Position numbers and translations under genes: made by a program. Of a stretch of DNA of 64,000 nt, positions 56,955-62,363 are shown piece by piece. The DNA is taken from the NCBI RefSeq assembly GCF_030863805.1, contig NZ_CP132957.1:558001-622000 (forward strand). The letters run 5' to 3'. The stretch is from Kineothrix sp. MB12-C1. Its GTDB lineage: Bacteria > Bacillota > Clostridia > Lachnospirales > Lachnospiraceae. Below the pieces are notes generated by a model, which had not been told where the DNA came from, searched no databases, and worked only from the letters and a program-made list of their open reading frames with translations. Position 1 is the first letter of the stretch. Each line of letters begins with the position of its first letter.

Positions 56955-57911
56955 ATGAATTATAATGTGAAACGAGGAGATATTGTTGTTTTCAAAGCAT
57001 CCGGTGATTGGTTGAGCAAGGCGATCGCTTGGTTTACTCAAACTGATGTGAGCCATGCTGCCATGGTTTACTCCGCAGACTCCATTATCGAAGTCGGTGC
57101 TCACGGCATCGGCGTTCATAAGATGGCGATTCTGGATGGCGATTCGGTCTATGTTATGCGGCTGCAATCAAACCCTAGTGCTGCACCGCTCATCCAATCG
57201 GCAGATGCCTATTTACAGGCTAAGGTCCGTTATGATTTTCCAGCTCTTCTTATTCTTGCCGGCTTACTCATCTATCGGCGGATCGTTCCTTCACTCCCCC
57301 TTATGAAGCTGGTGAATCTTATCTTATCCGCTGCTTGTGCTACTCTCGATAAAGCCCTGAATCGTATACTTCACCAAAGCGATGGTCCTTTTATGATCTG
57401 CTCACAACTCGTTTATCAGATTTATTACGATTGCGGCGAAAATTACCGTATCCAAATTGAAAATGGTGCTGTCTTCAATAGTCAACTGACCGCCGGTCCC
57501 GCTGATTCTATCTGCCTCGTAGATTTAGCAAAGGTGGGAAAGCGCACTCCTGCAGATATGTTTATGGCTTCTTCTGACGAAGTATCCGTATCTAATCAAG
57601 ATATGAAGGAATTCTATGAACTCCTATGCGCGTCGGAACAAAAAAATGATAAAGCTGCTCCGGATATTATCATTGCCTCTGTAGAAATGGACAAAACTTT
57701 AGCGCTCACAGTAAAATTCTTAGATCTACTGGAGCGCCTACTAGAAAGTGCACATTATGATATTCCTTTGGAAGCTTTGTTTGTCACACCCGGCGATCTG
57801 GTCTATCACGCCGTCAACTTGGAAAATGAAGGAACCATCGACTTGCAAAGAGTTCATTCTGTAAAAGATCTTATTTTATCCGCTACACCTTTTCCAAGCT
57901 GGCCCGAATGA
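56955..57911 (+). CDS. YiiX/YebB-like permuted papain-fold peptidase or amidase
   Basis: 318 residues from ATG 56955 (GGGAGG upstream). The first half has the NlpC/P60-like core of YiiX-type proteins: VKRGDIVVFKASG, then DVSHAAMVYS (His) and MICSQLVYQIYYDCG (Cys). The C-terminal 120 residues are unassigned. It overlaps the opposite YkgJ-like gene by 29 bases at its 3' end. Confidence 0.75.
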   Translation: MNYNVKRGDIVVFKASGDWLSKAIAWFTQTDVSHAAMVYSADSIIEVGAHGIGVHKMAILDGDSVYVMRLQSNPSAAPLIQSADAYLQAKVRYDFPALLILAGLLIYRRIVPSLPLMKLVNLILSAACATLDKALNRILHQSDGPFMICSQLVYQIYYDCGENYRIQIENGAVFNSQLTAGPADSICLVDLAKVGKRTPADMFMASSDEVSVSNQDMKEFYELLCASEQKNDKAAPDIIIASVEMDKTLALTVKFLDLLERLLESAHYDIPLEALFVTPGDLVYHAVNLENEGTIDLQRVHSVKDLILSATPFPSWPE

Positions 57912-58233
57912 TCTTTTCCTTTTCCTCATCTAAATCAGGAATCCGGGAAGTCATTTTATAAATATCCCTTCCGCATTCCTCCCACTCTTTTTTCTTCAGA
58001 TCACAAGCTTCCGCATTCAAACGGAAGAACTCCTCCTTATCCATTTGATCTTTCAGGAGTTCCTCATAATATCTTTCAATATCACAAAAGATCGGCCTTT
58101 CTTCATATATTCGGCAAAGCATCGTATCTAAATCGAGGTTTCTGCATATCCCATCCCCATCATGAAGATATGCAGTGACTTCACTTTTATTAAGTCCGAT
58201 ACAGCATAAACCACATTTATCACAGTTAAACAT
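57883..58233 (-). CDS. YkgJ-type zinc/iron-chelating Cys-cluster protein
   Basis: A 116-residue protein beginning MFNCDKCGLCC, with a second cluster MLCRIYEERPIFC, as in the YkgJ/CxxCxxCC family that binds metal. Convergent overlap of 29 bases with the YiiX-like gene. Function in the family is not known. Confidence 0.85.
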   Translation of the reverse strand: MFNCDKCGLCCIGLNKSEVTAYLHDGDGICRNLDLDTMLCRIYEERPIFCDIERYYEELLKDQMDKEEFFRLNAEACDLKKKEWEECGRDIYKMTSRIPDLDEEKEKIIRASLEKV

Positions 58234-58369: not shown

Positions 58370-61051
58370 TTACGTCTTTTTTAAATCCTGAATCTCTTCG
58401 ACCGTAGTCTTCGAAAGGGAATCAAAAAGATAATTCCTCTCCTTCGGCTGCTTGTCTGAATATTCCTGAGTTATTTTCTGATTGGCAGCCTCAACTTCTT
58501 CACGAAGTTCTCTTGCAGAAAGAAGTCCGCATCCTTGCCCCCTTATAATGATTTGCTCTAATCCATCTGAGGTGGCCACTGTTACCGGATATTTCTTTCC
58601 ATTTTCATGTGCGAATCTCTCAATATACATATCCGCGGTCTCCGCTTCCTTCGTATAAACTACATGAATATTGTGATACTTAAGAATCTCTGTATCATGG
58701 CCTTTGACCCGGTAGGCATCGAATACAACAATCAGATTGCACTTTCGAATCGCCTGATAATTACTGAGTATATCCAAGAGTTTACCTCTCGCTCCATCAA
58801 TATTCACCTCAGCTAATTCCTTTAAGTCCTCCCATGCAAATATTACATTATAGCCGTCTACCAGAAGATATTCTTCTTTCAGCTCCTGTTTTTTCCACGT
58901 TCGGATTACGGGCTCTGCCGATGGGGAAGATTTAATTTCCCGCCGTTTGCTGCTCATATGAAAACCACGCTTTTGCACATTACCGCTCTTCTTATTAGCA
59001 TAGAAGGTACGTTCTAAAATGGCGTCTACTTCCTCTGTACCAAGCCACTGTTCCTTGCTCTCTCTTGCCGCAAAAGATTGCATAATTTGTTCTTCTTCCT
59101 CTGTCCCATCCGATCGCAAAGTACGTACTTCCAGATGACTGTAGTCTTTGACCTTGTCCCAGCTTACTACGAATCCTGCACCATGGGCGCAGAATACAGA
59201 ACTTGTAGGATTGTTCACATCCTTCTCAGAATCATACCCGATTTGTTTCACTACTTCTTCCGCATTGTGACAATGTCCATAGCCACGCACTGTACAAAAC
59301 AACCTTCCGCAGCCTTTTGTATAAGCAATCACTTCTTTCAAATAATCTCGCATTGTAAGGACAGGTGCATGTCCCGTAAGGATACTCATCTCTCCCCGGG
59401 TCTGCGGCATCCGGAAGATTCCATGCATTCTCTCCACATCTGTCATAGCTCTTCCTATAAGTTTTTCCGGCACTTCTAAGCGAAAATCATAATAAGGCTC
59501 CAGCAATACGGACTTGGCTTCCTTTAATCCCTGACGAAGCGCCCGGTATGTAGCCTGCCTAAAATCGCCTCCTTCTGTATGCTTCTGATGTGCCCGTCCT
59601 GCAATCAGCGTAATTTTCATATCGGTAATTCCTGCCCCTGTCAGAACTCCTCTATGCTCTTTTTCTTCCAAATGGGTGAGCACCAGGCGCTGCCAGTTCC
59701 TGTCGAGGACATCTTCACTGCAATCTGTGGAAAAAACAAGGCCGCTTCCCGGCTCTGCCGGCTCTAAAAGAAGATGCACCTCTGCGTAATGCCTTAAAGG
59801 CTCAAAATGTCCGACTCCTACTACGCTGTTGTCTATCGTCTCTTTATATACAATATTTCCCGTATCGAATGTTACCGTAACTCCAAAGCGTTCCTGTATC
59901 AAGCTTTTTAGGATTTCTGTCTGCACTTCTCCCATAATCTTCGCCTGTATTTCCTGCAATACTTCATCAAAAGCAATATGAAGCTGCGGATCTTCTTCCT
60001 CTAATTGACGAAGTTTAGGCAGCATGACCGCCGTATCACACCCCGGCGGAAGTTCGATCCGGTATGTGAGCACAGGCTCTAATATTGGAGACAGAAAGTC
60101 TTTTTCGAATCCTAATCCTTCTCCCGGCTTGGTCTTACTAAGTCCGGTAACCGCACATATACTTCCCGCCGCTACCGTCTCTGTTGTTTTATACTTTTCA
60201 CCGGAATAAATACGAATCTGGTTAACCTTCTCCTCCCATACCTCTGCTTCACCACCGGACACCGCTTCTCTTGCCCGAAGACTTCCTCCTGTGATTTTCA
60301 TAAAGGTCAGCCTATTTCCTTGCTCATCTCTGGCAATCTTAAATATTCTCGCACCAAATAACTCTGAATAACTTTTATCTTTTACATGGATATTCATCCC
60401 ATGCAGAAACTCTTCCACTCCGGTAAACTTAAGCGCCGAACCGAAATAGCAGGGGAATATCTTACGCTCATAAATCAGTTGCTGTATTCTCTCTTCTCCT
60501 ACTCTTCCCGTCTCTAAAAATTGGTCGAGTGCTTCTTCCTCAGACATAGCCACTTGTTCATAAAAGGCTTCTGTTTCCCCTTCATCAAAGACTATGCAGC
60601 CTTCGTCCAGACGCTCCTTCAACTCTCCAATCAGCAAGTTTTTATCAGTACCGCTCTGATCCATTTTATTAATAAATAAAAAGACAGGAATTTCATACTT
60701 TTTCAAAAGCCGCCATAACGTCCTCGTATGCCCTTGTATCCCATCCGCTCCGCTAATTACAAGAATCGCATAATCCAGCACCCGGAGAGTTCTCTCCATT
60801 TCTGCTGAGAAATCCACATGTCCCGGTGTATCCACAAGTGTAATACGTCTATCTCCCAGTTCCAGAACCGCCTGTTTGGAGAAAATAGTAATACCTCTCT
60901 CCCGCTCCAAAGAATAGGTATCCAAAAAGGCATCTTTATTGTCCACTCTCCCTGGCTGTCTGATAATGCCGCTTTTATAAAGAAGAGCCTCCGATAAGGT
61001 CGTCTTTCCGGCATCCACATGTGCCAATATTCCAAATACCAATTCCTTCAT
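58370..61051 (-). CDS. TetM/TetO-like translational GTPase fused to a YacP/Rae1-type NYN ribonuclease domain
   Basis: 893 residues from ATG 61051. Residues 1 to about 650 align in length and motif order with ribosomal-protection proteins and EF-G: AHVDAGKT, RGITI, DTPGHVD, NKMD, LLEPYYDFRLEVPE. Residues 726-893 match YacP/Rae1: LLVDGYNVIFAW (D732), VVFDAYRVKG (D778), YTKEAETADMYIE (D807), VTVATSDGLEQ (D829) and LLSARELREEVE. All four acidic residues are kept. Rae1 of Bacillus cuts mRNA in the ribosomal A site, the same place where TetM-like GTPases bind. A basic linker joins the halves. Coupled A-site sensing and cutting is my inference. Confidence 0.88.
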   Translation of the reverse strand: MKELVFGILAHVDAGKTTLSEALLYKSGIIRQPGRVDNKDAFLDTYSLERERGITIFSKQAVLELGDRRITLVDTPGHVDFSAEMERTLRVLDYAILVISGADGIQGHTRTLWRLLKKYEIPVFLFINKMDQSGTDKNLLIGELKERLDEGCIVFDEGETEAFYEQVAMSEEEALDQFLETGRVGEERIQQLIYERKIFPCYFGSALKFTGVEEFLHGMNIHVKDKSYSELFGARIFKIARDEQGNRLTFMKITGGSLRAREAVSGGEAEVWEEKVNQIRIYSGEKYKTTETVAAGSICAVTGLSKTKPGEGLGFEKDFLSPILEPVLTYRIELPPGCDTAVMLPKLRQLEEEDPQLHIAFDEVLQEIQAKIMGEVQTEILKSLIQERFGVTVTFDTGNIVYKETIDNSVVGVGHFEPLRHYAEVHLLLEPAEPGSGLVFSTDCSEDVLDRNWQRLVLTHLEEKEHRGVLTGAGITDMKITLIAGRAHQKHTEGGDFRQATYRALRQGLKEAKSVLLEPYYDFRLEVPEKLIGRAMTDVERMHGIFRMPQTRGEMSILTGHAPVLTMRDYLKEVIAYTKGCGRLFCTVRGYGHCHNAEEVVKQIGYDSEKDVNNPTSSVFCAHGAGFVVSWDKVKDYSHLEVRTLRSDGTEEEEQIMQSFAARESKEQWLGTEEVDAILERTFYANKKSGNVQKRGFHMSSKRREIKSSPSAEPVIRTWKKQELKEEYLLVDGYNVIFAWEDLKELAEVNIDGARGKLLDILSNYQAIRKCNLIVVFDAYRVKGHDTEILKYHNIHVVYTKEAETADMYIERFAHENGKKYPVTVATSDGLEQIIIRGQGCGLLSARELREEVEAANQKITQEYSDKQPKERNYLFDSLSKTTVEEIQDLKKT

Positions 61052-61151
61052 TTTAATAATAATACCTTTCCAAAAAAATAAAAAGAACTTATATGCCACT
61101 TTATAGTAACATATAAGTCTCTTATTGTAAAAATAATGTAACTATAAAAGT

Positions 61152-61172: not shown

Positions 61173-62363
61173 TTAGCTTACATAATTATCAAAATAGCCC
61201 TGAACGAGAATAATCGGCGTTCCTTTATCTCCTGATCCACTCGTCAAATCACAGAGGGAACCGATTAAGTCGGTCAGCTTTCTAGGGGTCGTTCCCTGAG
61301 ATGCCATATCGCCCACCAAATCATCTTTTTTCTCTTTGATACGCTTCGTAATCGCTTCCTTCAGCGCTTCGCCGGACAAATCCTTAAAATCGTTATCTGC
61401 AAGATATTTTAACTTCACTTCGTTAGGCGTACCTTCTAGGCCGGGTGTACTTGCCGGAGATACACAAGGATCTGCCAACTCCCAAATCTTTCCTACCGGG
61501 TCTTTGAAAGCGCCATCGCCATAAACCATAACTTCCACATACTTTCCGGTTCTTTCCAGAATGTCTTTCTGAATATCCATAACCAAATCGGTACATTCAT
61601 TCGGGAATAGCTTAATGGTCTCTTCTGTGGATTTATTAGAACCGAGAAGTCCATACTGCTCATTATATCCGCTTCCATCGATGGAACTAACCAGAATTTC
61701 ATCCATTCCGCATACGATTTCTGCTCCGCATGCTTTTAAGATTTTCTTCGTGCGGAAACGGGTATGAATATCACAATTTAATACTTTCTTCGTATATCCG
61801 AGAATCTTTCTGCAATCGTTAGCGAAGATTACCTCCACTTCTGCTCCTGCTTCCTTAATCAGGTCGCTATAGTATTGCACATAATCGACCCCTGTAAAAG
61901 GATGCTTATTTTCTCCGAAAAGTTCTCTGTATTTTTCAAGGGTAAGCACATCGCTGTATGGATTGACACCTGCTTCATCCATCATATCGACAGATACCAG
62001 TTCGTTACCAACCTCATCGCTCGGGTAACTTAACATAAGTACGATCTTATCAGCTCCCTTGGCAATTCCCTTCAAACAAATGGAAAAACGATTTCTGGAT
62101 AAAATAGGGAAAATAACACCTATGGTCCCGCCTCCCAGTTTCGCTCTCACATCTTTTGCTATATGATCAGTAGAAGCATAATTGCCCTGCGCCCGCGCAA
62201 CGACTGATTCCGTTACGGCAATAACATCTCTGTCTCTAAGCCCGAAGCCTTCACTGTCCGCGGCCTCCAGAACACTGTCCGTTACAATTTTTACCAGGTC
62301 ATCCCCTTCTCTGATGATAGGGCAGCGAATCCCTCTAGATATCGTTCCTACTTTTCTCTCCAT
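61173..62363 (-). CDS. Coenzyme F420-0:L-glutamate ligase-like protein
   Basis: A 396-residue CofE-family protein: RDRDVIAVTESVVARAQG, LKGIAKGADKIVLML and VYGDGAFKDPVGKIWELADP. The family was named for F420 glutamylation, but most Clostridia do not make F420, so another substrate is likely. GAAGG precedes the ATG. Confidence 0.85.
   Translation of the reverse strand: MERKVGTISRGIRCPIIREGDDLVKIVTDSVLEAADSEGFGLRDRDVIAVTESVVARAQGNYASTDHIAKDVRAKLGGGTIGVIFPILSRNRFSICLKGIAKGADKIVLMLSYPSDEVGNELVSVDMMDEAGVNPYSDVLTLEKYRELFGENKHPFTGVDYVQYYSDLIKEAGAEVEVIFANDCRKILGYTKKVLNCDIHTRFRTKKILKACGAEIVCGMDEILVSSIDGSGYNEQYGLLGSNKSTEETIKLFPNECTDLVMDIQKDILERTGKYVEVMVYGDGAFKDPVGKIWELADPCVSPASTPGLEGTPNEVKLKYLADNDFKDLSGEALKEAITKRIKEKKDDLVGDMASQGTTPRKLTDLIGSLCDLTSGSGDKGTPIILVQGYFDNYVS

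Follow-up and report, generated by a model that had tools for sequence, protein, structure and literature searches.

A TetM-related translational GTPase fused to a Rae1-type nuclease as a candidate ribosome-surveillance factor in Lachnospiraceae

Domain IV of the translational GTPases EF-G and TetM enters the ribosomal A site. The consulted sections of the Rae1 literature describe Rae1 (YacP) of Bacillus subtilis as a ribosomal A-site mRNA nuclease. A paper by Condon from 2018 on the distribution of Rae1 may already mention its fusion to a GTPase. The fusion architecture as such is already known: in its consulted part, Atkinson 2015 (PMC4342817) reports Tet-NYN fusions in ten clostridial species and suggests RNase-assisted resistance; apart from that study, our literature search, whose scope did not extend to the Rae1 papers Leroy 2017 and Condon 2018, surfaced no report of the fusion. 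Here we analyse a protein of the same architecture, a Tet/EF-G-like GTPase followed by a YacP-like NYN domain as in the Clostridiales fusions of Atkinson 2015, encoded in a 64,000-nucleotide stretch of the Kineothrix sp. MB12-C1 genome (the window). Whereas the consulted part of that study (PMC4342817) classes the fusions as Tet proteins, we find a GTPase signature in common with unfused relatives, a fusion that is widespread in the host's family and a free yacP gene that is missing from its usual place. What is new here is that the GTPase forms a subfamily apart, that free Rae1 seems to have been replaced and that the case for drug resistance is weak.

The fusion gene occupies 893 uninterrupted codons from an ATG at 61051 to the stop codon at 58370–58372 (Table 1); an alternative in-frame GTG at 61099 would lengthen the protein by 16 residues. 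An earlier note on this DNA had proposed that one protein combines an EF-G/TetM-type translational GTPase with a YacP/Rae1 NYN nuclease, and the single reading frame with its complete Pfam domains, all six of which exceed their gathering scores (NYN_YacP at residues 729–891), bears this out. Full-length fusions were also read in 42 fetched relatives, which makes chance or an assembly error unlikely. Two separate products were among the outcomes that, according to the note, would speak against it. We looked for a conserved internal start in 43 sequences and found none: only 5 of the 43 have, within the roughly 60 codons that precede the nuclease, a start codon accompanied by a Shine-Dalgarno-like site (ATG in two, GTG or TTG in three), and the single ATG in the pre-nuclease stretch of the query has no such site. 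On sequence grounds, separate GTPase and nuclease products are unlikely.

Table 1. Features of the fusion gene (window coordinates)
Feature	Position	Strand	Basis
Complete fusion gene, 893 aa	58370..61051	-	ORF reading, ATG start
G domain, residues 5-220	60392..61039	-	Pfam GTP_EFTU PF00009, E 5.5e-52; G motifs kept
EF-G domain II, residues 234-308	60128..60352	-	Pfam EF-G_D2 PF22042
EF-G domain III, residues 325-395	59867..60079	-	Pfam EFG_III PF14492
EF-G domain IV, residues 399-513	59513..59857	-	Pfam EFG_IV PF03764
Domain IV segment GVGHFEPLRHYAEV, residues 412-425	59777..59818	-	Alignment of members, TetM, EF-G
Domain IV loop III region GRAHQKHTEGGDFR, residues 485-498	59558..59599	-	Alignment of members, TetM, EF-G
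EF-G domain V, residues 515-596	59264..59509	-	Pfam EFG_C PF00679
C-terminal extension, residues 597-641	59129..59263	-	Alignment and structure comparison of the model
Linker, residues 642-727	58871..59128	-	Model and alignment; mostly predicted disordered, variable length
Short conserved linker helix, residues 672-682	59006..59038	-	Model and alignment
YacP/Rae1-type NYN ribonuclease domain with short C-terminal tail, residues 728-893	58373..58870	-	Pfam, PDB match, conserved residues

An AlphaFold2 model (mean pLDDT 79.7, pTM 0.57) based on 26 aligned fusions contains two confident parts and between them a linker most of which, in segments 644–671 and 683–723, falls below pLDDT 50, which we read as a predicted lack of any fixed mutual orientation between GTPase and nuclease. 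Linker length ranges from 66 to 135 aa among 43 sequences, with a median of 78. A linker this long, variable and mostly disordered would suit two halves that act independently, the fusion just fixing their ratio or place with no functional hand-off; against such independence, the short helix within the linker is conserved (E674 in 26/26 sequences, I678 and T682 in 24/26 each).

The GTPase motifs, all of which the earlier note had described as kept, are indeed present (AHVDAGKTT, RGIT, DTPGH and NKMD), and their positions are identical in 42 or 43 of the 43 fused proteins, except for the M of NKMD (41) and one A of the P-loop (35). Both Pfam and the structure comparison of the model (VIA-align, with rows covering the GTPase part) place the G domain and EF-G domains II to V in the EF2/EF-G superfamily. 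By sequence, the nearest solved relatives of the GTPase are TetO and TetM. The model aligns with TetM up to residue 633 and the best EF-G rows stop near residue 607; rows for archaeal EF-2 and Snu114 also reach 616–637 in the C-terminal extension. The protein shares the five-domain fold of EF-G, and a histidine found in all four EF-G-type proteins compared lines up with its H488, immediately ahead of the loop III signature; the protein differs from EF-G in its domain IV signature and its C-terminal extension, and the host genome has two separate EF-G-type genes besides the fusion.

Comparison with unfused relatives revealed that the GTPase belongs to a subfamily of its own. Fifteen such relatives, 645–724 aa long, are 41–48% identical to the first 600 query residues, and all 15 also match sequence past residue 600. 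Across 43 fused and 15 unfused members, 28 positions reach a conservation of at least 95% with residues that the three canonical Tet and four EF-G-type comparators lack; 15 of these positions fall in domain IV. Thirteen domain IV residues are identical in 58/58 members (G412, L419, H421, E424, H460, H466, K490, H491, T492, G494, G495, R503 and R506). The first four of these lie in the segment GVGHFEPLRHYAEV and are not found in the TetM and EF-G types of the comparison, and K490, H491, T492, G494 and G495 lie in loop III (GRAHQKHTEGGDFR), where TetM and EF-G differ: the subfamily has HxKHTxGGDFR, as against YYSPVSTPADF in Tet and YHxVDSSEMAF in EF-G. In the C-terminal extension, Y606, C621 and G624 are likewise present in 58/58. 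In a quick tree, which came with a long-branch warning, a single clade (SH-aLRT 100) unites the 43 fused GTPases, and the unfused members lie outside it. By these comparisons the GTPase is a distant TetM relative and no canonical Tet protein, and its invariant domain IV residues raise the question of what it recognises in the decoding centre.

The published proposal (Atkinson 2015, PMC4342817, consulted in part) would make the protein a tetracycline ribosomal protection protein to whose resistance the added RNase contributes. The distant homology to TetM/TetO and the reach of the TetM alignment to residue 633 are in its favour, and the consulted part of PMC4750697 reports the Tet(M) mutants S508A and S508A P509A V510A as active, so that a departure from the Tet loop III is by itself compatible with tetracycline protection. 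On the other side, the GTPase scores 428 bits with the NCBIfam model tet_protect and 295 with tet_protect_M_W, below the curated cut-offs of 775 and 1100; it is about 30% identical to the three canonical Tet proteins, each of which exceeds a Tet cut-off; and, unlike TetM, TetO and TetW, it carries a nuclease and a different domain IV tip, the canonical loop III of the three Tet proteins being absent from the query, which reads AHQKHTEGGDF. Canonical Tet proteins above cut-off occur in 33 of 200 genomes of the host's family, and 31 of these 33 also carry the subfamily, so acquired Tet genes seem not to be superfluous beside it. Together with the wide, mostly single-copy distribution described below, the coexistence with Tet and the different tip make tetracycline protection unlikely as the main role, and we consider the resistance proposal as a whole quite improbable. 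For the same reasons of identity, score and loop III sequence, the further suggestion of the earlier note that the protein recognises a drug-bound ribosome finds little support.

The nuclease half covers positions 1–165 of the 166 of PF05991 (YacP NYN; 184 bits against a cut-off of 24.6), and its closest solved relative is B. subtilis YacP (5MQ8/5MQ9; E 4e-24, chain residues 4–137). NYN domain and conserved acidic residues are common to the fusion and Rae1/YacP of B. subtilis, which is a small free protein (181-residue PDB chain) whereas the nuclease of the fusion is the C-terminal domain of a GTPase. D732, N735, D778, D807, E811 and D829 are identical in all 43 fused and all 25 standalone YacP sequences aligned, and among them are the four acidic active-site-type residues D732, D778, D807 and D829; the earlier note had spoken of four acidic nuclease residues as kept. 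Residues of this type are catalytic; in the fusion they are putative active-site residues, conserved by alignment.

Standalone yacP has a characteristic location: of 33 distinct loci examined, 30 have it next to rlmB, sigH or both (the exceptions being L106, L108 and L110), and a strain table in the consulted part of PMC8266666 is consistent with rae1 adjoining sigH in B. subtilis. In the host genome, in which the fusion is the only YacP match, the order at this location is cysS, mrnC, rlmB, a GDSL-lipase protein and a sigma factor, and no yacP was found between rlmB and this sigma factor. The GDSL-lipase protein that fills the slot is 591 aa long (locus L117, 3584–5359, minus strand). Among 19 fusion genomes, none has a yacP match on the rlmB/sigma factor stretch, of which both flanks are visible in 15, and three genomes with standalone yacP show the gene inside the slot. 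Given this absence, the simplest reading of the gene order would be that free Rae1 was replaced by the fusion. In two of the 15 slot-empty fusion genomes (G317 and G371), another YacP match lies elsewhere. Two YacP matches are listed for G317, G371 and G404, and one genome of the class sample (G477) carries the fusion together with a standalone yacP in the old slot (loci L116 and L101); where fusion and standalone yacP share a genome, there could be a division of labour.

In a free NYN tree the fused sequences do not come together (two changes), with L094 and L099 grouping with standalone sequences of the class; a single fused NYN clade is not rejected (p-AU 0.62). We also considered whether the family's standalone genes arose when a fused ancestor split. 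The GTPases of the standalone genomes, seven in the tree plus L124, fall outside the fused clade, which argues against such a fission for the GTPase half; for the nuclease half it may still apply.

Some translational GTPases act on immature ribosomal subunits. Were the present GTPase likewise a ribosome assembly or maturation factor, its NYN domain might trim rRNA or tRNA precursors, and the adjacency of free yacP to mrnC and rlmB, as well as the proposal of a role for NYN domains in rRNA and tRNA maturation (cited in the consulted part of PMC4342817), would fit such a role. The description of B. subtilis Rae1 as attacking A-site mRNA, in the sections of the literature consulted, runs counter to it, and we think that the invariant domain IV residues fit contact with the decoding centre better than general assembly; a maturation role therefore seems very doubtful to us.

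The earlier note had called for a survey of the fusion across Clostridia; a small one had been published (Atkinson 2015), and we counted the family, class and phylum of the host in genome samples. In the Lachnospiraceae, YacP is present in 179 of 200 genomes, with one match in 175 of the 179, and 133 of 150 frames among the family YacP matches listed are of fusion length. The remaining 21 of the 200 genomes are without YacP, one of them recognised by the fact that neither match list contains it. YacP was found in 192 of 293 genomes of the class sample, in a mixture of fusion-length and short frames, and in 136 of 249 genomes of the phylum sample, where 16 matches lie in frames of fusion length, the sole measure by which phylum-sample fusions were judged, and 11 of the 16 are outside the host's class. 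Eighty named loci, the best 80 of 590 and thereby selected for long matches, align with both domains of the query, and none of their matches ends before residue 834; they include Lachnospiraceae, Oscillospiraceae, Anaerovorax, Fusibacter, Intestinimonas and others. A readable tip-bearing ORF is present in 76 of these 80; the tip pattern is exact in 73 of the 76, and 74 have both nuclease patterns; the other four have no readable tip-bearing ORF.

The protein matches 913 plasmid records, two of them over at least 80% of its length (Monoglobus and Agathobacter). The unfused GTPase subfamily occurs on plasmids of Ligilactobacillus salivarius, for example NC_007930.1 (H23) and NZ_CP117984.1 (H21 and H35). 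The L. salivarius members are annotated mostly as 'TetM/TetW/TetO/TetS family' and otherwise as 'translation factor GTPase family protein'; these labels on plasmid relatives agree with the warning of the earlier note that annotation as tetracycline resistance hides the nuclease. A tetracycline phenotype from the literature was also considered: the consulted part of the source gives intermediate sensitivity for an L. salivarius strain that has tet(M) and tet(L) calls, and this is not attributable to the subfamily gene.

The two halves are also linked where they are unfused. In the host's family, nine of ten genomes with standalone yacP carry the unfused GTPase, one (G082) in shortened form, and none of the 21 genomes without YacP has a subfamily GTPase, G178 having just a canonical Tet protein. 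Among the 179 YacP genomes of the family, two (G005 and G190) have no GTPase match at 1e-115, and a further seven have weak matches of 1e-122 to 1e-149 that may come from contig breaks or, in the case of G149, from a canonical Tet protein. Within the class, by counts made by eye, the GTPase is present in 13 of 58 standalone-YacP genomes among the matches listed (to about E 6e-48) as against 6 of 101 genomes without YacP (Fisher p 0.004), so each gene occurs without the other. An obligatory pairing of GTPase and YacP was therefore rejected as a general rule, being strong in the family and weak in the class; GTPase and nuclease thus go together in one lineage, yet each also occurs alone. The 6 of 101 YacP-less class genomes with an unfused GTPase and the 45 of the 58 listed standalone-YacP genomes without one again favour halves that act independently; the disappearance of free yacP from the usual slot of the checked fusion genomes and the co-occurrence of the unfused pair in the host's family do not, and on balance we regard mere co-location without a hand-off as rather unlikely.

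We consider it probable that the protein serves routine surveillance as a Rae1 A-site nuclease that carries its own GTPase for docking on the ribosome, tetracycline protection being absent or secondary. The host's Rae1 would be permanently tethered to its own translational GTPase, which would bind the factor site of ribosomes with an empty or stalled A site and probe that site with a domain IV tip of its own, different from that of TetM. The A site should not accommodate domain IV and the nuclease at once; GTP hydrolysis would therefore probably withdraw domain IV, after which the nuclease, on its linker of about 80 residues, could swing in and cut the mRNA; this order of GTPase and then nuclease is drawn from the geometry known from work on TetM, EF-G and Rae1. 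Truncated complexes would pass to rescue, for example by tmRNA, and the protein would chiefly be engaged in routine surveillance of ribosomes and in mRNA turnover. Several observations count for this explanation: the single YacP of the host genome with free yacP missing from its slot, the spread of mostly single-copy, fusion-length YacP frames in the family, the intact G motifs and acidic residues, the 13 invariant domain IV residues, the single fused clade, the family-level pairing when unfused, the two confident parts on a mostly disordered linker in the model, and the activity ascribed to Rae1 in B. subtilis. Others count against it: YacP is evidently dispensable in the 21 family genomes that lack it; the rRNA-maturation genes beside free yacP could point to rRNA over mRNA; the class-wide link between GTPase and YacP is loose and some YacP genomes of the family are poor in GTPase; and G317 and G371 have a second YacP.

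More tentatively, and with the chances somewhat against it, a wider proposal can be made: a separate class of translational GTPase, fused or unfused in Firmicutes, may be a dedicated ribosome-surveillance factor with its own A-site probe (the invariant HYAE and KHTxGGDFR), which in many Clostridia would have absorbed the cell's only A-site nuclease so that GTP hydrolysis would gate mRNA cleavage. If the surveillance reading holds, a common gene in gut Clostridia, possibly labelled tetracycline resistance in databases, would be a ribosome quality-control nuclease; false resistance calls could be removed, a GTP-gated A-site endonuclease would be offered for study, and the fate of Rae1 in genomes that have apparently lost the free gene would be explained.

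Directly upstream of the fusion ATG, on the minus strand at 61071–61124 of the window, lies a strong hairpin (-18.8 kcal/mol) followed by a T-run, which could terminate the upstream gene or act locally as an attenuator. We rejected a conserved TetM-like attenuator, since the same script placed a hairpin of -15 kcal/mol or lower within 110 nt of the start in 2 of 42 fused relatives (L071 and L096). A conserved operon partner was rejected as well, the top neighbour cluster occurring in just 8 of the best 80 named loci. In the window, the fusion gene is flanked on the same strand by an upstream gene of the F420-0:gamma-glutamyl ligase family (61173–62363; PF01996, E 6.2e-57) and a downstream gene for a small protein with a putative zinc- or iron-chelating CxxCxxCC domain (57883–58233).
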